Shown in pieces: positions 1,270-42,178 of a stretch of 49,661 nucleotides of DNA. How positions within the stretch are numbered: position 1 is the stretch's first letter; every line of letters starts with the position of its first letter. Under the pieces are notes generated by a model. It was not told where the DNA came from, made no database searches, and saw only the letters and a program-made list of their open reading frames with translations. A program made the position numbers and the translations under genes. This stretch comes from a bacterium (GTDB lineage Bacteria; Patescibacteriota; Minisyncoccia; UBA6257; Colwellbacteraceae), in NCBI GenBank assembly GCA_021787205.1, contig JAJYME010000005.1, positions 1-49,661 of the forward strand, in the 5' to 3' direction.

Positions 1270-1323
1270 ATTTTACCAAATAAGATGTTAAGAAAAGGTA
1301 AAAAATTGTTAAGGAATTGTTAA
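1270..1323 (-). promoter_or_regulatory. Regulator-box promoter A: TTAACA-ATTCC-TTAACA-ATTT-TTTACC-TTTTC-TTAACA-N10-TAAAAT
   Basis: Direct repeats at 1318, 1307, 1297 (degenerate), 1286; -10-like TAAAAT 1275..1270 exactly 10 nt downstream. Confidence 0.7.
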
Positions 1324-10241: not shown

Positions 10242-10296
10242 ATTATATCACAAAAGATGTTAAGAAAAGGTAAAAAAATTGTTAAGGAATTGTTAA
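10242..10296 (-). promoter_or_regulatory. Regulator-box promoter B: TTAACA-N5-TTAACA-N5-TTTACC-N5-TTAACA-N10-TATAAT
   Basis: Repeats at 10291, 10280, 10269 (degenerate), 10258, exact 11-bp period; TATAAT 10247..10242, 6 nt before the pspC ATG. Confidence 0.75.
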
Positions 10297-18896: not shown

Positions 18897-20672
18897 TTAG
18901 GCAGAAAAGCCTTCGGATTGGATCTCATAGAGGCTCTTATACAAGCCGCCAAACTCCATCAATTCTTTATGAGTCCCCTGCTCGACGATACCGCCATCCT
19001 TGATAGCAATGATGCGATCCATCTTTTTGATGGTCGAAAGCCTATGGGCGATGATGATAACCGTCTTCCTTTTCATCAGATTCTCCAAGGCTTCCTGGAT
19101 AAGGACCTCGGACTCGGAATCCAGGGCGGAAGTCGCCTCATCCAAAATAAGAATCGGCGCATCTTTCAAGATAGCGCGGGCGATCGCAACCCTTTGCCTT
19201 TCGCCACCAGAGAGCTTGACTCCCCTTTCACCCACCTTTGTATCATAGCCTTCGGTAAAGTTAGCGATGAACTCATGGCAACGAGCCAACTTGGACGCTT
19301 CGATGACCTGCTCGTCAGTCGCCTCCGGCATCCCGTAGCGGATATTGTCCATCAAGCTTCTATGAAAGAGCGATGGATCTTGAGGCACATAAGCGACATT
19401 CTTCCATAAGCTCTCCTGGGTCACCTGGCTGATGTCCTGATTATCAATATCAATCTCGCCGCTTGTGACATCAAACGATCTTAAGAGAAGTTTGACGATG
19501 GTCGACTTCCCGGCGCCAGAGGGGCCGATAAAAGCGACTCTTTCTTTGGGTCTTATTTCAAAGGATAGATTGCTGATGACATCGGCGCCATTCTTGTATT
19601 TGAAACCGACATTCTTAAAAGTGATAGTTCCGTGATCGACGACAAGGTCTTTGGCTTCCTCGGCATCTTTGATTTCATGAGGAGTCAAAAGAATCTCAGT
19701 CATCTCGTTGGCTTCGGCAATGTTCTCATAATAACTCCTGATGACGCGATAAAAGCTCCAAATCCGATGAAAGATCAAGCTGATATAAGATTGAAGCAAG
19801 ACGAAACTGCCGATTGAGAAATTGCCAGCAGCATAAAGCCTGACCGCATAGACCAAAAGCCCGACCTCGAGAACGGTAAACAAGAGAGCTTGGATGCCGT
19901 TAAAAGCGGTACCCAATCCCCAGGAGGTTTTCCTCAATCTTCTGACAGCCTCATTCATTTTGGCGAAGAGACCTGTCTCCCTTTTATAACCGTTGAAGAG
20001 TTTTATGGTCGCATAGTTCGATACCGTATCAGCCAAGACGCCGCTTGTCTCTGACTCCGTCTCAGATAACTCGAGATCGTACTTCAGCTTGAATCTCGAA
20101 AAGGCGATACTGATGAACATATAAAAAACGATCCAGACAAGGATGACGACCGAGATGACGTAGCTCACATCCCAAAGGACGATAACGGCGGAGATGATAG
20201 TGACGATCATCGGGACAACCTCATAAATCAGATTATCCATAATCGCCTCAAACGCCCTCGAGAAACTCCTGACCCTCTTCACTAAAGCGCCGGAAAAATT
20301 GTCAGCAAAGAAACCGGAAGAGTGCTTGTGCAAATAAGCGAAGCACTTGTCCATCAGCTTCGACATTGAAAAAGATTCGAAATGGACGATGGAGAAATCA
20401 GACACTCTCCAGAGCAGCCAGCTTATCCCCTTCAGGACGGCGATGACGACAATGATTCCTAAAGCCGCAGAAACCGAAAAACCGCCCGAGAGCGAATCCA
20501 GGAACTTTTTCATATAAATAGGGGTAATGATATCCAGAATCGAGATAGTCACGATCGAGGCGATCATTAAGAAAAACAAACCCTTAAGCTCCATTGCCTG
20601 TTTCCAAAAAATCGCCAGGGTCTGCTTTGAGTAAGCCTTCCTATTCTTTTTTTCTGCTTTTTTATTCGACAT
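18897..20672 (-). CDS. MsbA-like ABC exporter (fused TMD-NBD)
   Basis: Walker A GPSGAGKST, LSGGERQRVAIARAI, ILILDEATSALDSESE; start set at MSNKKAEKKNRK. Confidence 0.9.
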   Translation of the reverse strand: MSNKKAEKKNRKAYSKQTLAIFWKQAMELKGLFFLMIASIVTISILDIITPIYMKKFLDSLSGGFSVSAALGIIVVIAVLKGISWLLWRVSDFSIVHFESFSMSKLMDKCFAYLHKHSSGFFADNFSGALVKRVRSFSRAFEAIMDNLIYEVVPMIVTIISAVIVLWDVSYVISVVILVWIVFYMFISIAFSRFKLKYDLELSETESETSGVLADTVSNYATIKLFNGYKRETGLFAKMNEAVRRLRKTSWGLGTAFNGIQALLFTVLEVGLLVYAVRLYAAGNFSIGSFVLLQSYISLIFHRIWSFYRVIRSYYENIAEANEMTEILLTPHEIKDAEEAKDLVVDHGTITFKNVGFKYKNGADVISNLSFEIRPKERVAFIGPSGAGKSTIVKLLLRSFDVTSGEIDIDNQDISQVTQESLWKNVAYVPQDPSLFHRSLMDNIRYGMPEATDEQVIEASKLARCHEFIANFTEGYDTKVGERGVKLSGGERQRVAIARAILKDAPILILDEATSALDSESEVLIQEALENLMKRKTVIIIAHRLSTIKKMDRIIAIKDGGIVEQGTHKELMEFGGLYKSLYEIQSEGFSA

Positions 20673-20745
20673 ATCAAAGAATATGAGTTTATCACACGGG
20701 AGAATAAAAACAACCCCGCAGAAGCGGGATTGCGTATAAAAACAG

Positions 20746-21537
20746 TTATTTAATGCTAAAGACAGCACGGACCGTAAGCATTATTTCCTTATCCTCAGTC
20801 GAGGTATCGTAAGTGCCGTAATCTGAAATATCGACGGAATTAGGAGCCAAAACCTGAGTGACGCCGATTGATGAGCTTCTCAGCGATCCGACTTTGCTAT
20901 TGTCGGAGCCGGCAATCATCTCAGCTCTCTTCCTGGCATCCTTGACCGCCTCTCCGATAAGTTCGATTCTCTTTTCAGAAAGAGGGGTGTAATAATATTC
21001 CGGCGAACCGGGGTTAACAAGGATTCCGGATTCGAATAAGGGCTTGGTGTTATTGGCAACCGCCTTTATCTTGGCTATATCGTTCGATTTGACCTCGACG
21101 CTCTGATTAAAGGTATATCTGTCGGGCCCCTTCGAGCCGGATTTCTCATATTCATAGATCTTACCGGAATTCATAGTTGAGACCGAATATTCGCTCTCAG
21201 AGATTCCGTTATCCTTAAGGAAATCCTTAATGGTATTGAGGTCGGACTCCATCTCCCGAACTCCGGACTTCATATCGTCCTCGGTGACAGTCCTTGAGAA
21301 ATTGATCCTCCATTTAGCCAGATCAGACTTGACCTCGACTTTGGCTGAACCAGTAGTGGTCAGAGTGTTATCAAGAGCTTTTATCTTATAGGCGGTAACG
21401 GAAACGATGGTGAAAGCGATGACAATAAAGACCCCCAGAGCTCCTGCGGCGGCCGCATAAGGATTCTCGCGAATCCCCTTGTTTTCATCAATTATTTTTT
21501 TAACATTTGCCATCATCATGGTATTAATTATACTCAC
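20746..21537 (-). CDS. SIMPL (DUF541) domain protein
   Basis: TTTGSAKVEVKSDLAKWRINFSRTV...ARKRAEMIAG; start may be an internal ATG near 21519. Confidence 0.85.
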   Translation of the reverse strand: MSIINTMMMANVKKIIDENKGIRENPYAAAAGALGVFIVIAFTIVSVTAYKIKALDNTLTTTGSAKVEVKSDLAKWRINFSRTVTEDDMKSGVREMESDLNTIKDFLKDNGISESEYSVSTMNSGKIYEYEKSGSKGPDRYTFNQSVEVKSNDIAKIKAVANNTKPLFESGILVNPGSPEYYYTPLSEKRIELIGEAVKDARKRAEMIAGSDNSKVGSLRSSSIGVTQVLAPNSVDISDYGTYDTSTEDKEIMLTVRAVFSIK

Positions 21538-21555: not shown

Positions 21556-21726
21556 TTATTTTGTGTCAAAATGCTCTTTGGTAATGACACCATCAGCACC
21601 GTTAACCATCATGAGCTTATGACACTTGCGACATTTCACCTCTACCTTTCCGGTTATTAACTCACCCTTGAAGAGAAGCTTTCCGCATTCGCAGCGAAAC
21701 TCTTGAAGATTAGATTGGGTTTCCAT
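21556..21726 (-). CDS. 56-aa Com-like zinc-ribbon protein
   Basis: METQSNLQEFRCECGKLLFKGELITGKVEVKCRKCHKLMMVNGADGVITKEHFDTK; CxC...CxxC knuckles as in Mu Com-like proteins; below the ORF-track cutoff. Confidence 0.8.
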   Translation of the reverse strand: METQSNLQEFRCECGKLLFKGELITGKVEVKCRKCHKLMMVNGADGVITKEHFDTK

Positions 21727-21762: not shown

Positions 21763-21828
21763 ATTATAGAAAATAAGATGTTAAGCCACGGTAAAAAAAA
21801 TGTTAAGGAATTGTTAAGGAATTGTTAA
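21763..21828 (-). promoter_or_regulatory. Regulator-box promoter C: five 11-bp-spaced repeats then N10-TATAAT
   Basis: Repeats at 21823, 21812, 21801, 21790 (TTTACC), 21779; TATAAT 21768..21763. Confidence 0.78.
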
Positions 21829-21878: not shown

Positions 21879-23771
21879 TTATCCACAGGTTTTTGTGAAT
21901 TGGAGATAAGTTTTTCGATCAGCTAAAGTTCTTTCAGTTGCTAACCTTACCGGGGCAATTATTCTCGAAAGAATGACGCTCACATCCCCAAGGTGAGAGA
22001 GGTTTCCAGCCGCGGCCACCGCAGACGCCGAGTACTCCAGGGCCAACTTGCAGACAAGAGGAAGAACATCATTCCAAAAAATCTTATTGATTTCTACTTC
22101 ATCCTTAAGATCGATACCTCTCTTGGCGATAGCGTCCGTCAGAAGAGCGACGACGGGAGAAATCCTCCCCTTGGCTAAATCCTCGAAACAGTCTCTCAAG
22201 TCATCATTCAACTGCCTCGCAATGATATAATTTTTAAAGAAGCCGAGCACCGACGCGATCTCGACCGAGCCGACGGCATATCCAAGTTTCGAGAGGAGAA
22301 TAGTCGGCCCTAGGCTGTGACCCATCGACTTATCAGCGATGATGTCGAGCCGGCTGTATATTTTTCCATACCTCTCCTCCAAGGGACTGTTTTCAATACG
22401 GGCAGCTTCGATCTCCCAAAGGTTTCCGGCGTCCATTTTGTTAAGAATCGAAAGCGACAACCCGAAAAAATCGTCAGAAGATGAAGACTTCAATTCCGAG
22501 ACGACCTTTCTCAAACAATAATTAGCCAGGGGAAGATCGGCCGGATTCCCCTCACCATCCAAGAAACCGTCATAAATCGAATAAGCAATCCAACCACAAA
22601 GACTGACTACTCCTAAAGAAACAAGAAATTCGTCAGAGATCCCCTTCCGACTGTCAGAAGGCAAGCCGGAGGCGAGGAGAGAAGCGACCAGAATGATCTC
22701 CTGTTTTTCCTTCCCGGATGACACCGCTTCAAACCATCTGCTAAACGATTTCCTTAACCCGCCGCAATCGTCAAGATCAGCCTCGATATCCGATTTTACC
22801 TTCGAGAGAATACCGACTAGATAAGAATCATCCCGGGAAACCTCAGCCCCCGAACTTCCAGCGCGATTAATGACCTCGAGCGCCAAGGCTAGCTCAAGGT
22901 CGTAGGAACCGGAATAACTTTTGACACCATTCCTATTGGTCTCGACTACGAAAGGATAAATATTTCCGGACTCGGAATCTAACCAGTTGGCGATCTTTTC
23001 CACGTAGAGCGAGAGGTTGGAGGAATCGACACCACAATTCATCAACCCAAGGACGGAGAATGAGAGATCAAGCGGATTAGCCGCTTTGTCGATATTTTTT
23101 TCAAACCAGATTTTCAAATCCCCGATCTTCTCACCCCGATAGGCCCGGGAAACGAAATAAGCCACAGAAAATTCGGTTTCGTAGTAACGGGAAGAGAAGC
23201 TTCCCATCTCAATTGCCGACTCCATAAAACCGACAAGATTTGGCAGCTCAGCTCCAACTTTTGAAAGGGCGTAGGCGATATTGGCGTTAACCGCCAAGTC
23301 TACATCTTTCCACTTCTCAGCATCCGGGAGGGTGATCCAAGTATAATAAGGACCACCCTCAAAAGCCTCCTCAGAACTAAGGATCATGATGAGATAAGCC
23401 AGAGCCTCACCATCATTTTCGCCATTCAACAAATCCAACGAAGCAAAAGCCATCGAAGTCGAATCCAGGTCGTCCGGATAAGGGACGCTTGCCGCCGCCT
23501 CGGAGTTTCGACGCCAGTAATTGAAACATAAGCGGTCATTTCCCTGGGAGACCAAAAAAGATGTAAGCCGTTCGATAACCGGTTTGATTTCGGGATAAGA
23601 CTTAAGAGATTTGAAGGAATCAAGAATAAAAAAATTGGGAAAGACGGCGGAACTCGGTTTCTTATCGGCAAAATCCGGGTCGAAGGAGGTGAAAACTCGG
23701 AAGCCCTCCCTGATGTCGATCTTGGAAAGACGTGACAATTTAGTTTTTATTATCCGAGAATAATCAATCAT
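21879..23771 (-). CDS. Two-domain terpene-cyclase/polyprenyl-synthase-like protein
   Basis: N-terminal alpha/alpha-barrel-like region with VPYPDDLDSTSMAFASL and EGGPYYTWI...DVDLAVNANIAYALSKVG; C-terminal class I-like Asp motifs AYSIYDGFLDGEG and QLNDDLRDCFEDLAKGRISP. ATG at 23771 overlaps the kinase stop. Confidence 0.7.
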   Translation of the reverse strand: MIDYSRIIKTKLSRLSKIDIREGFRVFTSFDPDFADKKPSSAVFPNFFILDSFKSLKSYPEIKPVIERLTSFLVSQGNDRLCFNYWRRNSEAAASVPYPDDLDSTSMAFASLDLLNGENDGEALAYLIMILSSEEAFEGGPYYTWITLPDAEKWKDVDLAVNANIAYALSKVGAELPNLVGFMESAIEMGSFSSRYYETEFSVAYFVSRAYRGEKIGDLKIWFEKNIDKAANPLDLSFSVLGLMNCGVDSSNLSLYVEKIANWLDSESGNIYPFVVETNRNGVKSYSGSYDLELALALEVINRAGSSGAEVSRDDSYLVGILSKVKSDIEADLDDCGGLRKSFSRWFEAVSSGKEKQEIILVASLLASGLPSDSRKGISDEFLVSLGVVSLCGWIAYSIYDGFLDGEGNPADLPLANYCLRKVVSELKSSSSDDFFGLSLSILNKMDAGNLWEIEAARIENSPLEERYGKIYSRLDIIADKSMGHSLGPTILLSKLGYAVGSVEIASVLGFFKNYIIARQLNDDLRDCFEDLAKGRISPVVALLTDAIAKRGIDLKDEVEINKIFWNDVLPLVCKLALEYSASAVAAAGNLSHLGDVSVILSRIIAPVRLATERTLADRKTYLQFTKTCG

Positions 23772-25170
23772 CTTTTTTTTCAAATAAAGGAATCTGGACA
23801 AGAAAGACCGTCCCTATCTCTTGATCGCTGTCGAAAGCCACGATCCCATTGAAGTCCTCGTAGACCGAACTGCGGACGATGCCTAAGCCGAGACCGACCC
23901 CCTCCTTGCCGGTGGAAAAGAAGTTTTTGAAAATCCTTCTTTTGTTTTCCTCTTTGATGCCGCAACCAAAATCAAAGATTTCAAGGATATAATAACCCCC
24001 CTTCGAAAAGCTCTTGATAACAATTCTCCTATTGTCCTCCCTCTCAACCGTTTCATAAGCGTTGATACCGTTCGAGACAAGATTAGAGACGATATGAGAG
24101 AACTTAACGACTGACCCGCAGATCCTTTTCTCATCCCCGTCCGAGAGAAATTCAAAAACGATATTCCCCTTCTTAGCCTTGTAAGTCATAAAACCGAGAA
24201 CATCCCGTATCTCGTCGTCCGGGTTGAAGACAACCTTTTCCGCCCCCTTCAGTCTTCTCTTGTTTGAGTCCAGAAACTTTTCAAAATCACTCTTGGCTTC
24301 GTGAAACTCCTCCAAATACTCCTTGGCTCTGGTCACCTCTTCGCTTCCGCTCATCTTCTCGTCCATCGTCAACATCAAGACGCCGAGATGATTAGCGAGA
24401 TCGTGGAAGATTCCCGAAGAAAGCTTTCCGAACTCAATAAATCGGGAAGCTTGATTCATCTGATCCCGGTGTTGTTTCTCCAGCTCCTCAGTCCTTTCTT
24501 TAACCTTTATTTCCAAACTGTCCTTTTCGACTCTCAGATCGGACTCGGATTTTTTCAGGCGGCCGAAAGCCTTTTTTATCTCATGGTTGTAAAGATAAGA
24601 GATGATAAAAACAAAGATAATCGAAAAGGAGTAGACAAAGACGTCGACTAACTCGGTCGGCAACATCTTCCAAGATGTCGACGGCACGACGAGCCCTATC
24701 TCCTCGAGATAGAATACGCCGCTGATTGAAAAAAGAGATGAGACCAGCATAAAGACAGTAAACAGGTTATCGGTGAGAATAGAAGCGATGAGGATGGCAA
24801 TGATGTGAAGCAATAAAGCTTGGGGTACCGCGACTCCCCACGAAAGCATCGAGACAACGGCAAAGAACAAATAGAACAAGGACAGGAACTTTGAGGCGAC
24901 AAGTTGGTTTCCAGACATCGCTAAGACCCCCAGGAGGATTAGAAACAGCAAGACATTGACCGCTGTCTGAAGATCAGTGACTTCATTCGACCTGAAAGCA
25001 ACCAGACACATGGCGATCACGGCGACGAGAACCAGCCCGGTAGATAGTCCGAGCAAGATCTTAAGGATCGAGTATTTATGAATATCGTAAGACTCCTCCC
25101 TGTCGAAGTCGAGGATTCGCTTCAAAAGAGAAACAATCCTGTCTTTGAAAAAATCAGCTGTCAATCTCAT
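23764..25170 (-). CDS. Multi-TM sensor histidine kinase
   Basis: ~6 N-terminal TM segments, coiled coil, H-box FGKLSSGIFHDLANHLGVL, HATPase N-box NLVSNGINAYE, DFGCGI, GVGLGLGIV. Start reassigned to MRLTADFFKDR (25170). Confidence 0.9.
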   Translation of the reverse strand: MRLTADFFKDRIVSLLKRILDFDREESYDIHKYSILKILLGLSTGLVLVAVIAMCLVAFRSNEVTDLQTAVNVLLFLILLGVLAMSGNQLVASKFLSLFYLFFAVVSMLSWGVAVPQALLLHIIAILIASILTDNLFTVFMLVSSLFSISGVFYLEEIGLVVPSTSWKMLPTELVDVFVYSFSIIFVFIISYLYNHEIKKAFGRLKKSESDLRVEKDSLEIKVKERTEELEKQHRDQMNQASRFIEFGKLSSGIFHDLANHLGVLMLTMDEKMSGSEEVTRAKEYLEEFHEAKSDFEKFLDSNKRRLKGAEKVVFNPDDEIRDVLGFMTYKAKKGNIVFEFLSDGDEKRICGSVVKFSHIVSNLVSNGINAYETVEREDNRRIVIKSFSKGGYYILEIFDFGCGIKEENKRRIFKNFFSTGKEGVGLGLGIVRSSVYEDFNGIVAFDSDQEIGTVFLVQIPLFEKKDD

Positions 25171-25200
25171 GGATATTATTACGTAATTTAGAAGAAAAAG

Positions 25201-25220
25201 ACCCGCTCCAAGGAGCGGGT
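25201..25220 (-). terminator. Perfect hairpin between peptide gene and kinase gene (terminator or attenuator)
   Basis: ACCCGCTCC-AA-GGAGCGGGT followed by CTTTTTCTTC on the minus strand. Confidence 0.65.
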
Positions 25221-25228
25221 GAAAAAAC

Positions 25229-25342
25229 TTACAGCCAAGGATCACCCAAGACTCCGACAGTCGTCAGGACAAAAGCGCTTGAAAGCAGAGAATTGCGGAG
25301 ATTCTTGTCGGTCAGCATCTTCTGGAGAAGTTCTTTTTTCAT
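25229..25342 (-). CDS. 37-aa candidate signalling peptide precursor (ComX-like)
   Basis: MKKELLQKMLTDKNLRNSLLSSAFVLTTVGVLGDPWL; 41 nt downstream of a -10 box with four upstream TTAACA repeats; below the ORF-track cutoff. Confidence 0.65.
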   Translation of the reverse strand: MKKELLQKMLTDKNLRNSLLSSAFVLTTVGVLGDPWL

Positions 25343-25382
25343 TATTTTATTTTTTGATTCCTTCGACCTTTGTTGTAATTCT

Positions 25383-25448
25383 ATTGTATCACGCCGACCC
25401 CCTTAAAAAAGTTAAGGAATTGTTAAGGAATTGTTAAGGAATTGTTAA
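25383..25448 (-). promoter_or_regulatory. Regulator-box promoter D: TTAACA x3 + TTAACT, exact 11-bp period, N21, TACAAT
   Basis: Repeats at 25443, 25432, 25421, 25410; TACAAT 25388..25383. Confidence 0.72.
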
Positions 25449-25473
25449 GACCAAGGATGGGAATAAAAATGAA

Positions 25474-26154
25474 TTAAGCCAACTCCTCCCAGTCGCCATC
25501 AAAACGATACCCCGTCCCCGGAATAGCTTTGATAGCGCCTTCGCAGAACCTTATTTTTTTCCTGAGCAGGGAGATGTAGGTTTCAACCACCCTTGAAAAA
25601 GGATCCATATCGCCATCCCAGAGATGATCCATTATGTCGGCCCGGGACAGGACTTCGCCCTCCTTTTGGGCAAATAGCTTAAGAAGCATATATTCCTTTC
25701 TTGAAAGGTTGACCTCCTTGCCAGCCTCCAGGACCCGGCGGCGGACAAGATCGATTTCCAAAACGCCATATTTAAGCACCGTACTCAGATCATGATTAGA
25801 GCGGCGAAGGACCGCCTTGACTCTCGCCACGACCTCACTCATCGAAAATGGCTTCATGATATAGTCATCGGCGCCCATATCAAGGAAGAAAGTCCTCTCA
25901 GCCGGATCGCCCAAGGCGGAAACGATAATGATTCTCGTCTGGGTATTCTTTTTTCTTATGTTTGAACACACGACGGACCCTTCTTTTTTAGGCAGGACCC
26001 GGTCAAGGAGAATGACGTCATAATTATTGGCTAGGGCAAGGCGCTCTCCGCACTCCCCATCGGCAGCGACATCTACAACGAAGTTCTCAGATTCAAGACC
26101 TGTCTTGAGAAGTCTGGCGATTTTCGCGTCGTCTTCTACAACTAAAACTCTCAT
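25474..26154 (-). CDS. OmpR/PhoB-family response regulator
   Basis: Receiver MRVLVVEDD...YDVILLDRVLP...KPF; winged-helix C-terminus NLSRKEYMLLKLFAQKEGEVLSRADIMDHLWDGD...VVETYISLLRKKI...IPGTGYRF. Confidence 0.95.
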   Translation of the reverse strand: MRVLVVEDDAKIARLLKTGLESENFVVDVAADGECGERLALANNYDVILLDRVLPKKEGSVVCSNIRKKNTQTRIIIVSALGDPAERTFFLDMGADDYIMKPFSMSEVVARVKAVLRRSNHDLSTVLKYGVLEIDLVRRRVLEAGKEVNLSRKEYMLLKLFAQKEGEVLSRADIMDHLWDGDMDPFSRVVETYISLLRKKIRFCEGAIKAIPGTGYRFDGDWEELA

Positions 26155-26217: not shown

Positions 26218-27423
26218 TTAACCAACAAGGGTTGATAAAGCCCGAACCAGCTTATCGATTTCTTCTTTGGAGTTATATAAAGAAAGAGAAACACGGACAG
26301 AGGAAGGAATGCAAAGATATTCATGAGCCAATCCGACGCAGTGCTCACCCACCCTCACGGCGATCTTCTTTTGGTTCAAGAAATAACCGACATCGTGAGC
26401 ATGAAGCCCCTTGATATTGAAAGAGACCAGAGGAATCTTGTCTTTGATCGCCTTCGAACCGTAGATATCGACACCCTTTACCTTTTTGAGAGACGAGAGA
26501 AGATAGGCGAGCAGCTCCTTCTCATACTTCATTATCCCCTTCACGCCTTTTGATTTCAGATATTTCAAGGCGGCGGCGAGAGCGATGGCGCCAGAGACAT
26601 TGGGAGTTCCCCCTTCAAGAATATAGGGAAAGTCCTCGTAGATGACATCTTTCATCCTGACCCTCTTAACCATCTCGCCGCCAAACTTCACGGGAGAGAT
26701 TTGCGAATGCTTCTCCTGTTTGATAGCCAAGACTCCCGTACCCATCGGGGCGTACAGCTTGTGACCGGAGAAAGAAAGAAAATCGACGTTCATTTTTCTG
26801 AAGTTGACCACCTCGTGTTGGACATACTGGGAAGCATCAAAGACGGTAAAGATGTTTTTCTCTTCCGCCAGATCGGTGATTTTCTTAATTTCCGAGGTCG
26901 CAACCTTATTGCCGGTAAAATTGGAAGCTCCGGCAAAGACGATCACTCTGGTCTTACCCGTGACTTCTGACAGAAAATCAGTCGCCATAAAAACCAGATC
27001 CGGATCTTTCGGGAAAACGTACTTTACCTTGATATTTTTTGACTTAGCCAATTCGAGCCACGGTAAAAGGTTGCTGTGGTGCTCCATTCCGGAGACGATA
27101 ATCTCATCGCCAGACTTAAGAAGCGGTCTTAAAATGCCGGCGACGGTATTCAACCCTTCGGTCGAACCGGAGTTGAAAACGACCTCGCTTGGCTTGGCGC
27201 CGATGAAATCAGCAACCGCTTCCCTAGCCGACTCGAACATATCCGTCGCCGCTTCCGCCAAGTCATAAGAACCTCTTTTGATATTGCTGTTATGCTTGAG
27301 ATAAAAACCGCACTCAGCGTCAATGACGGAAAGCGGTTTTTGCGAGGTGGCGGCGGAGTCGAAATAAATCAGGCTTTTATTGTTTTTAAAAAAGGGGAAA
27401 TCTTTTTTATAAATTGAAGGCAT
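26218..27423 (-). CDS. sufS: Cysteine desulfurase SufS
   Basis: FFKNNKSLIYFDSAATSQKP, SGMEHHSNLLPW, SFSGHKLYAPMGTG, VRVGEHC. Confidence 0.93.
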   Translation of the reverse strand: MPSIYKKDFPFFKNNKSLIYFDSAATSQKPLSVIDAECGFYLKHNSNIKRGSYDLAEAATDMFESAREAVADFIGAKPSEVVFNSGSTEGLNTVAGILRPLLKSGDEIIVSGMEHHSNLLPWLELAKSKNIKVKYVFPKDPDLVFMATDFLSEVTGKTRVIVFAGASNFTGNKVATSEIKKITDLAEEKNIFTVFDASQYVQHEVVNFRKMNVDFLSFSGHKLYAPMGTGVLAIKQEKHSQISPVKFGGEMVKRVRMKDVIYEDFPYILEGGTPNVSGAIALAAALKYLKSKGVKGIMKYEKELLAYLLSSLKKVKGVDIYGSKAIKDKIPLVSFNIKGLHAHDVGYFLNQKKIAVRVGEHCVGLAHEYLCIPSSVRVSLSLYNSKEEIDKLVRALSTLVG

Positions 27424-28008
27424 CTAATTTTTTATGTTTATGTATTTTCGGATTGTCCGACTCAATTCCTCATCTGAGAGCAGAGGAGAAAGGAAATTCT
27501 CTATAAAAACCCTTACCGCCTCCTCTTTGTCCATCCCGCGAGAGGACAAGTAAAAGATCTTTTCCTTGTCGAAAATCTCGGTGTTGGCGCCATGAGAGAT
27601 GACGACATCGTTGTTCTCGGTAGAGATCGAGGGGATGAAAGAAACCGACGATTCGTCGCCGAGAAGGATAGCTTCGGAAAAAAGACTGACTTCCGAACCC
27701 TTGGCGTTCTTCCTAACATCAGTAACAGCAGAAACATCAGTCCGCCCTTTTCCGAAAATAACGGACCTTATCTTAACCGCGCTTTTAGTCCCCTTTGACA
27801 AGTGATTGACGCGAAGATTGATTGATGCCTTCCCATCTTTCGAAAGATGGGCAACAAAGACGTGAGCTTCCGCTTCCGGGGCCCCAAGGTTTATTTCCAG
27901 ATCTAACGATTCCTCCTCCTTCAAAAAAACCAAGATGTCATTTCTACCTTTCTTGCCAATGTCGATCTTTTTTCTCTTGTTTGTTATATTTTCTCCTTTT
28001 ATGATCAT
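27424..28008 (-). CDS. sufD: Short SufD-like protein (SufBD core)
   Basis: In operon with SufB/C/S; VISHGANTEIFDKEKIFYLSSRGMDKEEAVRVFIENFLSPL. Confidence 0.75.
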   Translation of the reverse strand: MIIKGENITNKRKKIDIGKKGRNDILVFLKEEESLDLEINLGAPEAEAHVFVAHLSKDGKASINLRVNHLSKGTKSAVKIRSVIFGKGRTDVSAVTDVRKNAKGSEVSLFSEAILLGDESSVSFIPSISTENNDVVISHGANTEIFDKEKIFYLSSRGMDKEEAVRVFIENFLSPLLSDEELSRTIRKYINIKN

Positions 28009-28041
28009 TAGTTCATAATATTTTCAACGCTCCAAAAGATA

Positions 28042-29370
28042 TCAGCCGATCGAGTTCTCAATTTCCATTTCCATAAGCCTGTTAAGTTCGACGGCGTACT
28101 CAAGAGGCAAGGCCTTCGTCACCGGATCGATAAAACCAGCGACAACCAAGGACATGGCTTCGGCTTGTTTGATACCTCGGCTCGCAAGATAGAAGAGTTC
28201 TTCATCACCTATCTTCCCAACCTTGGCTTCATGCCCGACCTTCGCCGAGGGATCACCGACTTGGATGACGGGATAAGAAGACGAAATAGAACGAGAATCG
28301 AGCATAAGGGTGTCGCATTGGGTGTGGGAAACGACATTCTTAGCGCCTTTGATTACCTTGACCAGACCGCGATAATTGGCGCGGCCGCCGTCCTTGATGA
28401 TGTTTTTGGAGATTATCTGGGAACGGGTATCGGAAGCGAAGTGGATCACTTTGGCGCCGGCGTCCTTCCATTGACCGCGACCAGCCATGGTGATATTGAT
28501 ATGTTTTGACCGGGCTCCTTCCCCCATAAGGAAAGACCCGGGATAAAGCATCGTTTTCTTGCTGCCAAGCGAGCCGCCGACCCACTCGATGGATCCATTC
28601 TTATAAACGACGGCTCTCTTGGTGTTCAGGTTAAAGACCTCGTTGCTCCAATTCTGGATCGTCGAATATTTTACCGAGGCGTTATCGTGGACAAAGATTT
28701 CCACCACTGCCGAGTGAAGGGAGCTTGCCAACCTGATCGGAGCAGTGCACCCTTCGATGTAATGAACTTCCGACCCTTCTTCGGCGATAATCAAAGTGTG
28801 TTCGAACTGGCCAGTCGAGCCGTCATTCATCCTGAAATAGGTGTGCAGTGGCAGGTCAACTTTGACCCCCTTCGGAACATAGAGAAAGCTGCCTCCGGAC
28901 CAGACTGCCCCATGCAAGGCGGAGAACTTGTTGTCCCCGACCGGGACACACTTGGTCATGAAATATTTTTTAAATAGCTCCGGATATTCCTTCAGGGCGG
29001 AGTCGGTGTCGGTGAAGATAACTCCACGAGACTTCAGATCGTCCTTGATCTTCGCGTAAAAGACTTCCGATTCGAATTGTCCGGAAACCCCGGCCAAGAC
29101 CTTCTTTTCCGCCTCCGGAATGCCCAACTTATCATAAACCTTCCTGATATCAGAAGGGACCTCTTCCCAAGAAGAGACCTTTTCCGTTTGCGGAGGGATA
29201 TAGTAAGTAAGGCCAGAGAGATCCAGGTCAGAGAGATCTGGCCCCCATTTGGGCATCGGTTTTGATTTGAAAACGTCGTAAGCATTTAGCCGAAAATCAG
29301 TCATCCACTGCGGTTCGTCCTTAGTCCGGGAAATCTCCTTGATTATGTTTTTATTGAGTCCTTTTTTCAT
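28042..29370 (-). CDS. sufB: Fe-S assembly protein SufB
   Basis: VPKGVKVDLPLHTYFRMN, VHYIEGCTAP, KVGHEAKVGKIGDEELFYLASRG. Confidence 0.93.
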   Translation of the reverse strand: MKKGLNKNIIKEISRTKDEPQWMTDFRLNAYDVFKSKPMPKWGPDLSDLDLSGLTYYIPPQTEKVSSWEEVPSDIRKVYDKLGIPEAEKKVLAGVSGQFESEVFYAKIKDDLKSRGVIFTDTDSALKEYPELFKKYFMTKCVPVGDNKFSALHGAVWSGGSFLYVPKGVKVDLPLHTYFRMNDGSTGQFEHTLIIAEEGSEVHYIEGCTAPIRLASSLHSAVVEIFVHDNASVKYSTIQNWSNEVFNLNTKRAVVYKNGSIEWVGGSLGSKKTMLYPGSFLMGEGARSKHINITMAGRGQWKDAGAKVIHFASDTRSQIISKNIIKDGGRANYRGLVKVIKGAKNVVSHTQCDTLMLDSRSISSSYPVIQVGDPSAKVGHEAKVGKIGDEELFYLASRGIKQAEAMSLVVAGFIDPVTKALPLEYAVELNRLMEMEIENSIG

Positions 29371-30127
29371 TGAAAGAGTCGAAGCCTTCTTTTTCTATTC
29401 TTTTTAAAATCCCAGCTTGCGATTTAACATCGCCGGAAAAGACTATCTTGCCGCCATTCAAAATATGAATGTAGTCGGGAGCGAGATATTTGATCAGTTT
29501 TTCGTAATGAGTGATGATGATAAAGGATGTTCCTCTTTTTTTAAGAAGATTCAAGACCTTGCCGAACTGCTTGATGGTCGGGATATCGGCGCCGGAATCA
29601 ATCTCATCCAAAATGGCAATCTTCGGATCGGCGGCGACAAGCTGCAAGATTTCGCTTTTCTTCTTCTCACCTCCGGACATGTCCTTGTTGACCTGTTTTT
29701 CCAAGAAAGATTCGTCTATTTTAAGGATGGGAAGGAAGGGAGCGAGCCTCTTCTTAGTCTCGGCGATGGGAGACAGGATTCCCAAGGAAGAAACCGATCT
29801 TCTGATCAGGGCGCTGACCGTAAGCCCTTCTATCATCGGCGGATTCTGGAAGGCCAAAAAGATTCCCGACTTGAAGCGGTCAACCGGACTCATCTCGTTG
29901 ATGTTTTTCCCATTAAAAAAAATCTTGCCTGATTTTATCTCAACACCCGGATAGCCAGCGACAGACAGGGCAGCCGTGCTTTTCCCGGAACCGTTCTTGC
30001 CCATCAATATATGGATTTCACCCTTACCTATTTCAAGATTCAATCCTTTGATGACGTTTTTTTTATCCCTCTCGAGACTAAGGTTCGAGATTTTAAGAAC
30101 CGGTTTTACTGCTTTTGTTTCCGACAT
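29351..30127 (-). CDS. sufC: Fe-S assembly ATPase SufC
   Basis: GKNGSGKST, MSGGEKKKSEILQ, IAILDEIDSGAD. Confidence 0.93.
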   Translation of the reverse strand: MSETKAVKPVLKISNLSLERDKKNVIKGLNLEIGKGEIHILMGKNGSGKSTAALSVAGYPGVEIKSGKIFFNGKNINEMSPVDRFKSGIFLAFQNPPMIEGLTVSALIRRSVSSLGILSPIAETKKRLAPFLPILKIDESFLEKQVNKDMSGGEKKKSEILQLVAADPKIAILDEIDSGADIPTIKQFGKVLNLLKKRGTSFIIITHYEKLIKYLAPDYIHILNGGKIVFSGDVKSQAGILKRIEKEGFDSFNEKRTQ

Positions 30128-33576: not shown

Positions 33577-34215
33577 TTATAATGACATATCGCTGCCGTT
33601 CTCATAAAAACAAGTCGCATCGACATAGCTGCCGGAGCAAGTATTCTTAGTACCTCCGTCATTGACCATCTTATCCCTATACTTCAAAGACTCCAACCTG
33701 GCGGCAAGCTTGAAGGTATTAGAAGCGCTCGATTTGTAGGCGTAGAAGTAATTCGTGTTATTCACCGGATCAAGCGGCAGAGCGGGAATCGGAGAACCGC
33801 CGGAGGCATCGGTAAACTTGACGTCTACCCAACCATTGCCATCGATAGCGGTAGAGGCAACAACGTTGGTGGCGGCACCGAAGGTGTTCGTAGAGAGGTT
33901 GGTAAACGGAGTGATAGTGGCGGTCGTGGCGCCAGAGGAGGCGCAGCCGACACCGGTAGTGGACGTTCCCACACAATAAGTCCTGAAGTCTAGGTTCACG
34001 CTGGCGGCGCTTACCGCATAAGTATGGATAGCCCTTTCCAAATTGTCCATATCATTGATCCTGGTGCCGTCCCTTCCCTGCTTCATGAGCTCGACGGGAT
34101 TCAAGACAAGAACCGTCGCCGATCCCAAGATCGCAATGATAGCGATGACGATCAAGAGCTCGATAAGGGTGAATCCCTTTTTCTCTTGAATATTAACTGA
34201 TTTCATTTTATTCAT
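33577..34215 (-). CDS. Type IV pilin-like protein
   Basis: KKGFTLIELLIVIAIIAILGSATVLVLNPVELMKQ prepilin motif. Confidence 0.88.
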   Translation of the reverse strand: MNKMKSVNIQEKKGFTLIELLIVIAIIAILGSATVLVLNPVELMKQGRDGTRINDMDNLERAIHTYAVSAASVNLDFRTYCVGTSTTGVGCASSGATTATITPFTNLSTNTFGAATNVVASTAIDGNGWVDVKFTDASGGSPIPALPLDPVNNTNYFYAYKSSASNTFKLAARLESLKYRDKMVNDGGTKNTCSGSYVDATCFYENGSDMSL

Positions 34216-34250
34216 ATTTATTATATTACTTTCGCTCATAGCTGCAAACC

Positions 34251-34865
34251 TTACAGGTTTGGATTGCTGCCAACCTCGTACCAACAATCAGTCGTGGCAT
34301 AATTCCCAGCGGTGGCGCAATTATAGATTCCGCCGTCGATTTTCATATTGTCCCTGAACTTCAAGGATTCCAGACGGGAGACGAACTTATAAGTGTAATT
34401 AACATTCTCGCACTTGTAAGCATAAAGATAGGTGTTGTTATTCACGGGATCCTTCGGCAAGACAGAGAGCGGCGGAAAGCCGTTCATATTATTGAAATTA
34501 ACATCAACCCAACCGGTGCCGGTAATGGTGACATCGGATACAATATCCCCGGATGTCACCAGCGGGTGCGCTCCGAAGGGAGACGGGGTGACACCCGCCG
34601 TCCCGGCAGTCAGACGGCCATTAGTCGTGCAAGAACCCAAGGTGAGAGTGACATTTGTATTAGCGATGAAGGTATTGATATCGCTTTTCAAGGCATTCAT
34701 ATCTGACATCCTGACCCGGTCACGTGACTGAGCCATGATCTCCGTCGGATTCAAGACGAGAACCGCCGAAGCGCTTATAATCATAATAATCCCAATGACC
34801 AAGAGAAGCTCAATCAGGGTAAAACCTTTTTTCTTTTGAAAGTTGTTCTTCATTTTTTTAAACAA
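34251..34865 (-). CDS. Type IV pilin-like protein
   Basis: KKGFTLIELLLVIGIIMIISASAVLVLNPTEIMAQ. Confidence 0.88.
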   Translation of the reverse strand: MFKKMKNNFQKKKGFTLIELLLVIGIIMIISASAVLVLNPTEIMAQSRDRVRMSDMNALKSDINTFIANTNVTLTLGSCTTNGRLTAGTAGVTPSPFGAHPLVTSGDIVSDVTITGTGWVDVNFNNMNGFPPLSVLPKDPVNNNTYLYAYKCENVNYTYKFVSRLESLKFRDNMKIDGGIYNCATAGNYATTDCWYEVGSNPNL

Positions 34866-35514
34866 GCCTCATTGATTGCCAGATATTGGTCTGATTAAAC
34901 CAGATTGAAATAAGAACAATCGCGAGGATGGCAGACGGGAACCAGAGATAATAAAGCGGCACCACCTCGATCTTTTTTCTGATAAAAAGATTGGCAAGAT
35001 GAACCAAGAGATAAGCGAGAATGATAAATATAAAGACAAAGAGAACGCCAGGGAAGCCGGAAAGGAAGAGAGCGATAAAAGCAAAATTAAGCTCCTCCCT
35101 CTCAAAGAATCTCTCATCTTTTCTCTTGTTTAAGAATTTGGCGAGGAAATAAAAAACCGTCGCGAAAAGAAGGGAGATAAGATAGGACAAGAAGAAGTGG
35201 TAAAGCGAATAGCGCAAAAAATAAGCGATGGGGGCCACCGGAGGGAGGAGATTCCTGGCTAAGGGAATAGTTTGCCAAAGGCGGTATTGGGAAAAAGCGT
35301 AATAACCGGCGATGGAAAAAATGATGACAATCGGAATCAGGGTGAAAATTTTCACATTCTTTGCCAGGAAATTTTTAGCAAAAATCTGAAGGGCGATAAG
35401 CAACAACAAATATCCGACGATGAAAATTAGCATGATCAAATTATAAAACAAAACAAATAAAAATCCTAAATAAGAAGAAGATATAATACGAAGATTTATC
35501 TTTTTGACGAACAT
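34858..35514 (-). CDS. Hypothetical polytopic membrane protein
   Basis: Start reassigned to MFVKKINLRI (35514); the longer ORF runs through a terminator into the upstream pilin gene. Confidence 0.65.
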   Translation of the reverse strand: MFVKKINLRIISSSYLGFLFVLFYNLIMLIFIVGYLLLLIALQIFAKNFLAKNVKIFTLIPIVIIFSIAGYYAFSQYRLWQTIPLARNLLPPVAPIAYFLRYSLYHFFLSYLISLLFATVFYFLAKFLNKRKDERFFEREELNFAFIALFLSGFPGVLFVFIFIILAYLLVHLANLFIRKKIEVVPLYYLWFPSAILAIVLISIWFNQTNIWQSMRLV

Positions 35515-35539
35515 AGAAATCCTAAAAGTAAAAAACAAA

Positions 35540-35562
35540 AATCCCGCGAAGGCGGGATTTTT
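35540..35562 (-). terminator. Terminator after pilin
   Basis: AAATCCCGC-GAAG-GCGGGATTTTT. Confidence 0.75.
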
Positions 35563-35569
35563 AAGTTCA

Positions 35570-36145
35570 TTAGAATGAAGCCATATTGGTTCCAATCTCG
35601 TAGTAGGCAGTGTTGGTGCCACCATCATTGGTCGCTTTAGTGGAATACTTTGAAGATTCCAACCTGGTCGAGAGTTTGAAGGTGTTGTTGGTGCCCTCGT
35701 ATCTGAAACCATATAAGCAACCGCTGTTGCCGTTATTGGGATCAAGAGGAAGGGCGGCGATCGGAGAACCTCCGGTAAGAGCGCCGAAGTTAATCGGAAC
35801 CCAACCAGCTCCAGCCACGGTGGTGACGGTGCTTACAGTAAAGTTGGTCGTGGTGGCAGTAGCGAGGCCTAAGAAGTTAGCATTATAGGTAGTGCCGGGC
35901 TGAGCGGTCGTACAAGCGACTGAGGCGCATGAACCCATGCTGACGGTGGTAGTATTTACAAGATAATTGTTGATCGCGTTTCTCAAGGAATCGAGATCGT
36001 TCAATCTTGTGCCGTCGCGGGATTGAGCCATGAGTTCAACAGGGTTCAAAACAAGGACGGTTGCCGAGCCCAAGATTGCAATGATCGCGATAACGATCAA
36101 AAGCTCGATGAGGGTAAACCCCTTTTTCTTTTGGATATTATTCAT
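35570..36145 (-). CDS. Type IV pilin-like protein
   Basis: MNNIQKKKGFTLIELLIVIAIIAILGSATVLVLNPVELMAQ. Confidence 0.9.
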   Translation of the reverse strand: MNNIQKKKGFTLIELLIVIAIIAILGSATVLVLNPVELMAQSRDGTRLNDLDSLRNAINNYLVNTTTVSMGSCASVACTTAQPGTTYNANFLGLATATTTNFTVSTVTTVAGAGWVPINFGALTGGSPIAALPLDPNNGNSGCLYGFRYEGTNNTFKLSTRLESSKYSTKATNDGGTNTAYYEIGTNMASF

Positions 36146-36275
36146 ATAATTTGGTTTATTTGTTCAACCTATTTGTTTATGTCTCTTATTATATCATAAC
36201 CGCTTGAAATACCATACAAGAATCGGCTGTGGATAAGTGCTAATAAAAAAATCCCCGCTTTCGCGGGGATATTCT

Positions 36276-36653
36276 TTAGACTTGCAGGAGGTAACCCCTG
36301 ATGTGGTTTATAAGGTCATCAATCGAGGTATGGGCCTTGATGTAGTAATCGACAGCTCCCAAATCCTTTCCCCGCTCGATGTCCGAATCCTGGCCGAGGT
36401 TCGAGGCGATAATGACTTGGATCCCGGACAAAGAAGGATCTTTCTGGATCTCTTCCAAGACCTCGAAACCGTTTTTCTTGGGCAAAATGATATCCAAAAG
36501 CACCAACCCGACCTCGGCGGTGTTGGAACGCAAAAGATCGAGCGCCATCTCCCCGTCCATCGCATACAAGACGCTGAATCCCTCCTTTTCCAAACGATTT
36601 TTTATGAGCGACGACAAGAACTTGTCATCTTCAACCAAAAGAATTGATTTCAT
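36276..36653 (-). CDS. Stand-alone receiver (CheY-like) protein
   Basis: MKSILLVEDDKFLSSLIKNRLEKEGF...VLLDIILPKKNGFEVLEEI...A; no output domain. Confidence 0.9.
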   Translation of the reverse strand: MKSILLVEDDKFLSSLIKNRLEKEGFSVLYAMDGEMALDLLRSNTAEVGLVLLDIILPKKNGFEVLEEIQKDPSLSGIQVIIASNLGQDSDIERGKDLGAVDYYIKAHTSIDDLINHIRGYLLQV

Positions 36654-36731
36654 ATATTTATGTGAATTAGGCGCTTTTACACGCTCGTTTTTCTGATACT
36701 AACACAAAATCCCAAAAAAATAAAGCAATAA

Positions 36732-36757
36732 AAAATCCCGGTTTTACCCGGAATTTT
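36732..36757 (-). terminator. Terminator after 16S rRNA transcript
   Basis: ATCCCGG-TTTTA-CCCGGAATTTT hairpin. Confidence 0.65.
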
Positions 36758-36928
36758 CCATATCATACCTTAACGATTTATTCTATAAAGCTTTTCCAGC
36801 TGACCAATCTCTAACCGATTCCCCGGTTAGCGAGCATCGTGACTTCACTATAGAGCTCCACGATTAACACTCTTTTGGTTCAACCAATTTCCTTTATCTA
36901 AAAGATAAAGTCGATCTTAATTTAATTG

Positions 36929-38415
<1,487 letters not shown>

Positions 38416-38669
38416 AATAAAAATCAAGGTTTAACTTGATATGGACAATGCCGAAATAAATTTCGAAAGAGTCCATATAAAGCATTCCCTGATCCTGAAT
38501 TAGATCGGACAACTGGAAAAACTCTATAAAATAAAAAGAAATCTTTTGATGGATTTCAAGATTCAACAAACCGTTAAGCAATACTCTTGCAAAACGTGTT
38601 AAATGCTGGTCGTTAAAAAGTATGATTTAATTGTTTAGTTCTCTGTCGCTTTTTCAAGTGACAAGAGTT

Positions 38670-38698
38670 ATATTAAACTATGAAAAAAACAATGTCAA
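38670..38698 (-). promoter_or_regulatory. Sigma70-type promoter for 16S rRNA
   Basis: TTGACA (38698..38693), 17 nt, TAATAT (38675..38670). Confidence 0.75.
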
Positions 38699-38731
38699 GA
38701 GCATCCTCAGCAAAAATAAAATCGCCTTGGC

Positions 38732-39010
38732 TTAGGCGATTTTTTTAGTCTTGGTTTCCTTCTTGACGCGAGGCTTCTTATCGGCCTTAGGGGCGGTAGC
38801 CGCCTTTCTGGCTTTGAACTTCTCGACGCGTCCAGCGGTGTCCAAAATCTTTCCTTCCTGTCCGGTAAAGAACGGGTGGCACTTGGAGCAGATTTCAACT
38901 TCCATCTTCTCTTTAGTAGATCCGGTTTTGATCACATTGCCGCAAGCGCAGGTAATGGTCGCATCGGAATGATAAACGGGATGAATGTTCTCTTTCATAA
39001 CACTGGACAT
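38732..39010 (-). CDS. rpmE: 50S ribosomal protein bL31
   Basis: [47 protein letters not shown]. Confidence 0.93.
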
Positions 39011-39073
39011 ATTACCAAGATTTTTTCAATTTGGCAAATGACCAATTTTAATGTATTTTTATATACATATATT

Positions 39074-39826
39074 ATGAACAAAGTTATTTTGGAACTCAGG
39101 GCCGGAACGGGCGGTGACGAAGCGGCGATCTTTGCCGGAGACCTGGCGAGAATGTACCAAGGCTTCGCTCAATCCCGCGGTTGGAAATTCATAGAGCTCG
39201 ACTCCACTCCCGGAACTTTGGGAGGATACAAGACCTTAGTCGCGGAAATCGCGAGTTGGGATCCGGAAGAAAACATCTATGATTTGTTAAAGCAGGAATC
39301 CGGAGTGCATAGGGTCCAGAGAGTGCCGGAAACGGAACGCTCAGGAAGGGTGCATACCTCCACCGCCTCCGTCGCGATCATGCCTCAGGTTGAAGAAAAG
39401 GAAATTCAAATCAACCCTTCAGACTTGGAAATATCGACTTTCAGATCGTCGGGACCCGGCGGTCAGAACGTCAACAAGGTTGAGACAGCCGTCAGAATCC
39501 TTCATAAACCCTCGGGAATCGTCGTCGCCTCCCAAGTCGAACGCTCCCAGATGGGAAACAAAGAAAGAGCTTTGGCGACCATAAGAGCCAAACTCTACGA
39601 ACATCAACAACTTGAAGAGCAAGTCCGCTTAGGAAAGCTCCGCCGCGACCAGATCGGATCGGGCGACAGATCGGAGAAGATTCGCACTTACAACTTCCCC
39701 GATGATCGCATCACCGACCACAGGATCGGAAAGAAGTGGCATAACATCGAAAAGATCTTGGATGGCGATATGGAACCGATTGTCAAAGCCTGGCAAAAAG
39801 CCGAGGAAGAGAAATCAGAGCAATAA
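39074..39826 (+). CDS. prfA: Short peptide chain release factor 1 lacking domain 1
   Basis: ELRAGTGGDEAAIFAGDLARMY, HRVQRVPETERSGRVHTS (PxT), RSSGPGGQNVNK (GGQ), SGDRSEKIRTYNFPDDRITDHRI; 250 aa. Confidence 0.88.
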   Translation: MNKVILELRAGTGGDEAAIFAGDLARMYQGFAQSRGWKFIELDSTPGTLGGYKTLVAEIASWDPEENIYDLLKQESGVHRVQRVPETERSGRVHTSTASVAIMPQVEEKEIQINPSDLEISTFRSSGPGGQNVNKVETAVRILHKPSGIVVASQVERSQMGNKERALATIRAKLYEHQQLEEQVRLGKLRRDQIGSGDRSEKIRTYNFPDDRITDHRIGKKWHNIEKILDGDMEPIVKAWQKAEEEKSEQ

Positions 39827-39829
39827 TAA

Positions 39830-39857
39830 AAGACACCGCGAATGCGGTGTCTTTTAT
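39830..39857 (+). terminator. Terminator after prfA
   Basis: AAGACACCGC-GAAT-GCGGTGTCTTTT. Confidence 0.75.
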
Positions 39858-39860
39858 TTA

Positions 39861-42131: not shown

Positions 42132-42152
42132 ATTGTTTTAATTCTAACAAAA

Positions 42153-42178
42153 AACAGCGGTTATAAAAACCGCTGTTT
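42153..42178 (-). terminator. Terminator between pilin-fusion genes
   Basis: AACAGCGGTT-ATAA-AACCGCTGTT. Confidence 0.7.

Follow-up and report, generated by a model that had tools for sequence, protein, structure and literature searches.

Ultra-small bacteria of the candidate phyla radiation (CPR; Patescibacteria) are generally regarded as pared-down cells that mostly depend on a host, and a locus in one of them raises the question of whether these organisms carry a peptide signalling system of their own. The locus lies on the minus strand of a 49,661-nucleotide (nt) stretch of DNA (contig JAJYME010000005.1 of assembly GCA_021787205.1, Colwellbacteraceae; hereafter the window) and comprises a response regulator (RR), a 37-amino-acid (aa) peptide, a membrane histidine kinase (HK) and a two-domain enzyme (Table 1). 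A first-pass annotation had read these four open reading frames (ORFs), all of which we found where it had placed them, as a prenyl-peptide quorum-sensing locus that resembles ComQXPA of Bacillus but is separate from it. Our analysis supports that overall interpretation; judging from sequence, we think it probable that the genes form a peptide-lipidation two-component signalling cassette, in which the enzyme would prenylate (and may cyclise) a tryptophan (Trp) of the peptide and the product would signal through HK and RR. The open-access literature that we searched gave no account of such a system in CPR bacteria.

Conservation of the cassette across Patescibacteria

A protein search of 200 relatives returned two enzyme homologues of the same family, both from metagenome-assembled genomes (MAGs) labelled Colwellbacteria; their loci, L005 and L006, are each present twice in our set (as L015 and L018, respectively). 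Both have the order small ORF (MKKLIKKILESKKVRNAAALSAFALTTVSVGSPWS and MNKLIKKVLTNKASRDAKAMDVFARTTSSVGIIWN), HK, enzyme, with an OmpR-type RR convergent to the enzyme. Searched against genome contigs, the enzyme sequence alone gave no match, and a three-sequence profile was needed to detect homologues there. Profile searches then placed the enzyme in 6 of 384 genomes of the class, in 8 contig loci and in 21 of 380 genomes of the phylum, counts that include the window's own genome. After removal of duplicates, 26 independent loci remain in which HK and enzyme occur together; the labels of the MAGs that carry them include Colwell-, Morani-, Pacei-, Sacchari- and Falkowbacteria. The first-pass annotation had named adjacency of enzyme homologues to HK and RR genes as a test of its proposal; we found HK in all 26 loci, always directly upstream of the enzyme and usually overlapping it (by 8 nt in the window), and an OmpR RR clustered with them in at least 21, some of the others being cut by contig ends.

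No further neighbour family is common around the 26 loci, which have no conserved exporter or leader peptidase, and an ABC transporter is near the cassette in a few loci only. At a further locus, L064 (5486-7031), the peptide MIDTLQKVLTDSNLRSSQAVEAKLAEKSDVETPWFD directly precedes the enzyme and HK is missing, an arrangement that links the peptide to the enzyme itself and forms a naturally minimal candidate enzyme-substrate pair. We considered whether the enzyme gene might encode a housekeeping prenyl-diphosphate synthase and rejected this idea, as the gene occurs only sporadically (in 3 of 200 relatives and in 21 of 380 genomes in the phylum) and is tied to the peptide and HK. The regulator and kinase assignments of the first-pass annotation, OmpR-type and multi-transmembrane (TM), agree with the domain matches (Response_reg 3.3e-25 and Trans_reg_C 3.5e-20 in RR; HATPase_c 3.5e-16 in HK) and with the predicted TM segments (Table 1).

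A conserved precursor peptide with a near-C-terminal tryptophan

The window peptide is MKKELLQKMLTDKNLRNSLLSSAFVLTTVGVLGDPWL. The first-pass annotation had described it as a Trp-containing 37-aa peptide, to which we add that Trp is the second residue from the C-terminus. Conservation of the small ORF in relatives, likewise set as a test beforehand, is borne out: just upstream of HK, 25 of the 26 loci carry a small ORF with Trp 2-7 residues from the C-terminus, mostly within 'PW', compared to a mean of 4.2 loci in dinucleotide shuffles, and a strict form (ATG start, 30-60 aa, PW) was found in 19 loci compared to 0.05. In leave-one-out searches with a hidden Markov model (HMM), the left-out peptide was the top match in 23 of 25 loci, with E-values down to 2.5e-17; the window peptide was recovered at E=2.9e-9 as the sole match among 532 small ORFs, and the peptides of L066 and L067 were missed. 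The 37-aa ORF is therefore real, well beyond chance. Precursors are 22-57 aa long (mostly 34-39), and Trp is never the last residue (n=25). Their leader is conserved, with the pattern L..LLTDK..R, as is the amino-acid sequence of the C-terminus, whereas the core sequences are very short and variable; the terminal region holds a single Trp and no Trp run. The 26th locus, L019 (5400-5500), encodes a C-terminus ending in NPGTPWRD and has no ATG, GTG or TTG start, possibly using ATT. The peptides match no Pfam or NCBIfam family, leader families included, and the ComX family PF05952 had no match in 24 peptides at E<=10.

The sequence around the peptide ORF also has recurrent features. In 13 of 25 loci (0.7 expected), a GGTCGA element precedes the peptide ATG at a distance of 25-54 nt, namely in the window, L005, L006, L013, L014, L016, L020, L021, L024, L052, L054, L061 and L062; several loci lacking it have a strong AGGAGG Shine-Dalgarno sequence instead, and the element is perhaps part of the 5' untranslated region (5'UTR) or a translation element. 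Its window form, AAAGGTCGA, was rejected as a regulon mark because its seven genome copies are at chance level. As an intrinsic terminator directly follows the peptide ORF, peptide mRNA is probably more abundant than read-through into HK and enzyme. We also considered an attenuator or leader-peptide role for the small ORF, which was rejected given that its amino-acid sequence is conserved and only one Trp is present.

Prenyltransferase-like and cyclase-like domains of the enzyme

The window enzyme alone has no Pfam or NCBIfam match, and a PDB sequence search with it yielded only noise; PF00348 likewise had no match in 13 enzymes at E<=1, despite a predicted fold of that type. Relationships became apparent from structure models, which were built from nine sequences, and from family-level comparison. 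The window enzyme model (predicted local distance difference test, pLDDT, 78; predicted template modelling score, pTM, 0.52) gave Foldseek matches to geranylgeranyl diphosphate (GGPP) synthase (3.5e-5) and Ord1 (4.2e-4), while the N-terminal half of the L015 model matched drimenol synthase (AsDMS, 1.2e-6) and squalene-hopene cyclase (1.4e-6), with trans-prenyltransferases also among the matches to that enzyme. The family profile retrieved AsDMS from the PDB at 2.8e-11, aligning window D103 with D333 (Asn in the D333N mutant entry), and Pfam and NCBIfam scans of relatives returned squalene-cyclase domains. By these comparisons the C-terminal half is assigned a trans-prenyltransferase fold and the N-terminal half a class II terpene-cyclase domain, in line with the polyprenyl-synthase Asp motifs and extra N-terminal cyclase-like domain that the first-pass annotation had described.

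The candidate catalytic residues are strongly conserved. D405, Q520, D523, D524, D527 and D531 are invariant in 27 of 27 enzymes and D401 is present in 26, while D103 is found in all 18 of these enzymes with an aligned class II motif. That motif is absent or degenerate in L019, L020, L023, L024, L061, L062, L064, L066 and L067, and several family members, at 272-301 aa about as long as ComQ, lack a cyclase domain, indicating that the cyclase is optional. The Asp motifs noted at first pass are present, with window forms that deviate from those of most relatives: DGFLD rather than DDxxD, and DLDST rather than DLDDT, the Asp equivalent to AsDMS D333 being kept. DLDST was considered as a sign of cyclase decay and rejected, given the DLDTT of drimenol synthase and the retention of the catalytic Asp in the window. 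The second Asp motif reads QL(N)DDxxD, with Asp at the first position in the register of PalQ, a Trp prenyltransferase discussed below, and Asn preceding it in most members. Q520, three residues before the first Asp of this motif, corresponds to the Gln implicated in Trp recognition by PalQ and Ord1; Gln here is also possible in canonical synthases and is thus permissive rather than proof. Either half-reaction is a prediction from motifs and models. Elsewhere in the set, L025 (7154-8176) encodes a stand-alone cyclase-like enzyme half behind an N-terminal hydrophobic segment, with no HK, RR or family Trp peptide nearby.

Isoprenoid supply

The weakest and most interesting link of the mechanism is the supply of isoprenoids. 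The window's genome, which is 96% complete, gave no match to PF00348, PF01255 (UppS), PF02401 (IspH) or PF00368 (HMG-CoA reductase) in searches in which control genomes did give matches. As no isoprenoid pathway is detectable, the cell probably takes up its prenyl donor from its surroundings, or else makes it by an unrecognised route, although this dependence is inferred from gene absence in one genome at that completeness. The cassette raises the question of how an organism that makes no isoprenoids comes by its donor.

Predicted regulator boxes and genomic surroundings

In the 96%-complete genome no Trans_reg_C (PF00486) protein other than RR was found, which makes RR the natural reader of the predicted TTAACA boxes. 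A near-identical promoter block of ~50 bp with four or five 11-bp TTAACA/TTTACC repeats recurs in this genome, always on the minus strand, at window positions 1307, 10280, 21801-21828 and 25410-25449 and on contig 2 at 44084 and 63679; the two contig 2 copies share flanking sequence, which suggests duplication. An 11-bp spacing is typical of OmpR/PhoB-family sites. The exact repeat pair occurs eight times in this genome compared to once in 26 other same-family genomes, and lag-11 periodicity upstream of the peptides is evident across the family even when the window is left out (z=5.1). Besides the cassette's own operon, predicted boxes mark about five sites, whose neighbours are of envelope type. 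Two other gene groups were noted on the minus strand of the window: SUF-type iron-sulfur cluster assembly genes (SufC, SufB, SufD and SufS-like) directly upstream of RR at 26218-30127, and several type IV prepilin-like ORFs (GFTLIELLIVIAIIAILGSATVLVLNP) in a row at 33577-43341, downstream of GspE/PilC-like genes.

Table 1 Features of the cassette and of the predicted regulator boxes in the window.
Feature	Coordinates	Strand	Description
OmpR-family RR	25474..26154	-	Response_reg and Trans_reg_C domains; genome's only PF00486 protein found
Predicted RR box	25410..25449	-	Four 11-bp direct repeats TTAACA-N5, 5' of the peptide-HK-enzyme operon
Candidate -10 hexamer	25383..25388	-	TACAAT of the putative peptide promoter, read from sequence
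AAAGGTCGA element	25363..25371	-	Predicted 5'UTR; contains GGTCGA
Precursor peptide	25229..25342	-	37 aa; leader LLQKMLTDKNLRN..., C-terminus ...GDPWL, Trp second from end
Intrinsic terminator	25201..25220	-	Directly 3' of the peptide ORF
Membrane HK	23764..25170	-	~5-6 TM; H-box GIFHDLANHL; HATPase_c
Two-domain enzyme	21879..23771	-	N-terminal class II terpene-cyclase domain (TC-beta-like; DLDST, D103); C-terminal trans-prenyltransferase-like domain
Enzyme C-terminal domain residues			First Asp-rich motif D401-G-F-L-D405; Q520, D523, D524, D527, D531 (window numbering)
Predicted RR box, second copy	21801..21828	-	Before Zn-finger/SIMPL/ABC-exporter cluster
Com-like Zn-finger ORF	21556-21726		Behind the 21801-21828 box; identity read from sequence
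SIMPL-like ORF	20746-21537		Behind the 21801-21828 box; identity read from sequence
ABC exporter	18897-20768		Behind the 21801-21828 box; identity read from sequence
Predicted RR box	10280..10296	-	Before PspC-like ORF (ATG ~10235); PspC identity read from sequence
Predicted RR box	1307..1323	-	Upstream of secreted beta-helix-like protein ORF (from ~1117); identity read from sequence

Proposed mechanism and alternative explanations

In the mechanism we propose, a short precursor, mostly 34-39 aa, would be made and its conserved N-terminal leader probably recognised by the enzyme. The class I domain would then use a prenyl diphosphate to attach a C10-C20 prenyl chain to the near-C-terminal Trp in the manner of ComQ, PalQ and ChrPC, a reaction suggested by the fold, the metal ligands and the Gln and Asp residues associated with Trp recognition. 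Members with an intact N-terminal domain, in which homology and the catalytic Asp are evident, may further cyclise the prenyl chain by protonation. The modified C-terminal fragment would be released and exported, no dedicated protease or exporter being conserved; the co-encoded multi-TM HK, to judge from gene linkage, would sense the product and phosphorylate RR, which would in turn bind the 11-bp repeats at its own operon, creating positive or negative feedback, and at the other predicted sites. That such a signal would report cell density, as the term 'quorum' implies, is an inference, since a signal that is cell-autonomous or depends on the host would be expected to show this gene layout too, and since the predicted regulon is envelope-flavoured. 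One may also postulate a family of cyclised-terpenoid peptide pheromones in Patescibacteria, in which the class II domain would fold the prenyl chain on Trp into a polycyclic terpene; the signal would control the one OmpR-type regulon of the cell and its maturation would be gated by host isoprenoid supply, on the grounds that a cell making no isoprenoids would take its donor from the host or community; we regard this more specific scenario as tentative and rather doubtful.

Several observations weigh against the proposed lipidation signalling and should be kept in mind. The cell must either import its prenyl donor or synthesise it by a route so far unrecognised, the cassette neighbours include no conserved exporter or leader peptidase, and the enzyme models are of moderate quality (pTM 0.52, nine sequences). 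RR boxes stand at envelope-type genes, such that the trigger could be stress rather than the peptide. The second motif of the CPR enzymes is of DDxxD type, compared to the NDxxx/GDxxx of ComQ, although PalQ also has Asp at equivalent spacing. Finally, the papers cited here do not establish the products of PalX/PalQ or ChrPC as pheromones.

One alternative is an enzyme that does modify the peptide but yields a lipopeptide antimicrobial or host-interaction product, a ribosomally synthesised and post-translationally modified peptide (RiPP), with HK and RR responding to that product, or to damage from it, only for autoregulation or self-protection. Prenylated RiPPs can be membrane active (PMC13290415), the predicted regulon sites precede PspC-like, ABC-exporter and secreted-protein ORFs, a few loci have an ABC transporter close by, and L064 keeps peptide and enzyme without HK; yet no immunity or export gene is conserved among the neighbours, apart from rare loci HK adjoins the enzyme, usually with an overlap, and the cores are very short and variable, and we consider this explanation unlikely. 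The same chemistry might instead report the cell's own state or its host, with lipidation depending on scavenged isoprenoid diphosphate and the modified peptide staying in or near the membrane to act on HK in cis. Patescibacteria are commonly host-attached, the predicted regulon is of envelope type, no exporter or protease is conserved, and the enzyme needs a prenyl donor for which no synthesis genes were found. Since a scavenged donor could equally serve a canonical pheromone, and since donor dependence itself derives from gene absence in the one incomplete genome, we give this possibility lower credence still.

A more distant alternative is that the enzyme's product, sensed by HK, is a free terpenoid or a prenyl diphosphate, the small ORF being a leader or attenuator and not a substrate. 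Both domains are indeed related to free-terpenoid enzymes (GGPP synthase and drimenol synthase) and a terminator follows the peptide ORF, but leader and C-terminus are conserved as amino acids with a single Trp and no Trp run, the peptide stays with the enzyme when HK is missing (L064), and characterised peptide enzymes with this motif, which resemble trans-isoprenyl diphosphate synthases (trans-IDS), act on Trp (PMC13290415); this makes the alternative improbable. Scarcely credible is the notion that the peptide is a chance ORF and that an ordinary two-component system lies beside an unrelated isoprenoid enzyme. The short length of the ORF and the two peptides missed by the HMM would suit it, but it is already contradicted by the comparative data (25 of 26 loci compared to 4.2 expected, 19 compared to 0.05 in strict form, and HMM E-values to 2.5e-17).

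If peptide-lipidation signalling is indeed what the cassette performs, Trp-prenyl peptide signalling would extend far beyond Firmicutes, and the family would supply dozens of candidates for new peptide prenyltransferases, in many cases fused to a cyclase. The cassette brings along a peptide, a maturase, a receptor and a regulator and occurs in about 5% of the species sampled from the phylum (21 of 380), which makes signalling by Patescibacteria, whether among themselves or to hosts, directly testable by simple co-expression.

Comparison with known systems

ComQXPA, which a 2014 census defined by PF00348, PF05952, PF07730/PF02518 and PF00072/PF00196 and did not find outside Firmicutes (PMC4008528), offers four equivalent roles: a short precursor with a near-C-terminal Trp, a multi-TM HK, a regulator and a class I prenyl-synthase-type enzyme. 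In ComQ, Asp 1 and 5 of the first aspartate-rich motif (FARM) are essential, the second motif must be NDxxx/GDxxx, and the RO-E-2 enzyme accepts Trp second to fourth from the C-terminus (PMC5331326); both FARM Asp residues are kept in the CPR enzymes (D401 in 26 of 27, D405 in all 27), and the window Trp falls within the RO-E-2 range. ComX precursors are 52-73 aa long, those of the CPR loci 22-57 aa and mostly 34-39. The CPR cassette differs in its order (peptide-HK-enzyme), its unrelated leader, the extra class II cyclase domain of most members, its occurrence in Patescibacteria, a regulator of OmpR rather than NarL type (PF00196) and an HK without HisKA_3 (PF07730). It has no match to PF00348, PF05952, PF07730 or PF00196, as expected from the separateness first proposed for it; with the ComQ and ComX families unmatched and only the generic halves of the ComP and ComA domain pairs present (HATPase_c and receiver), we do not file it as ComQXPA.

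Closer parallels, not named in the first-pass annotation, come from PalX/PalQ/PalP and ChrPC. PalQ of Paenibacillus alvei is encoded with an HK and a leader-bearing precursor and prenylates Trp; in it, Q197 stands beside D200 and D204 of the second aspartate-rich motif (PMC10853753). The spacing Q520-xx-D523-xxx-D527 reproduces this arrangement in 27 of 27 CPR enzymes, and the combination of a trans-IDS-like Trp prenyltransferase, a leader-bearing precursor and an adjacent HK (26 CPR loci) recalls PalX/PalQ/PalP. PalX has a nitrile hydratase leader peptide (NHLP)-type leader and always has Trp as its last residue, the only position on which PalQ acts, whereas the CPR cassette has a short novel leader, Trp second to seventh from the end, an OmpR RR and usually a fused cyclase. 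ChrPC is described as a fused trans-IDS-like prenyltransferase and terpene cyclase of a RiPP pathway that prenylates a precursor Trp and then cyclises the Trp-bound prenyl (Hubrich et al. 2024, cited in PMC13290415). By that description, most CPR members resemble it in combining both domains in a single protein encoded beside a precursor peptide whose Trp would be the target, internal Trp also being accepted by ChrPC; they differ in that the CPR cyclase is N-terminal and missing from some members, and the cassette adds HK and an OmpR RR. Among single enzymes, AsDMS, a class II sesquiterpene cyclase of the haloacid dehalogenase (HAD)-TC-beta type, shares the TC-beta domain and catalytic Asp (D333, equivalent to D103) but is fused to a HAD phosphatase rather than to a class I prenyltransferase-like domain. 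Ord1 is a farnesyltransferase of free Trp (PMC13290415) that matches the CPR C-terminal domain in Foldseek and has the same Gln/Asp spacing (Q216A and D219A entries), with no peptide, cyclase or kinase. The CPR enzyme combines features of ComQ, PalQ and ChrPC, these parallels being observed at the level of genes and the reaction predicted. The cassette works like ComQXPA without being a member of it; its nearest kinds are PalX/PalQ/PalP and ChrPC, and it is a variant of a wider kind in which trans-IDS-like prenylation of a peptide Trp is coupled to a kinase.

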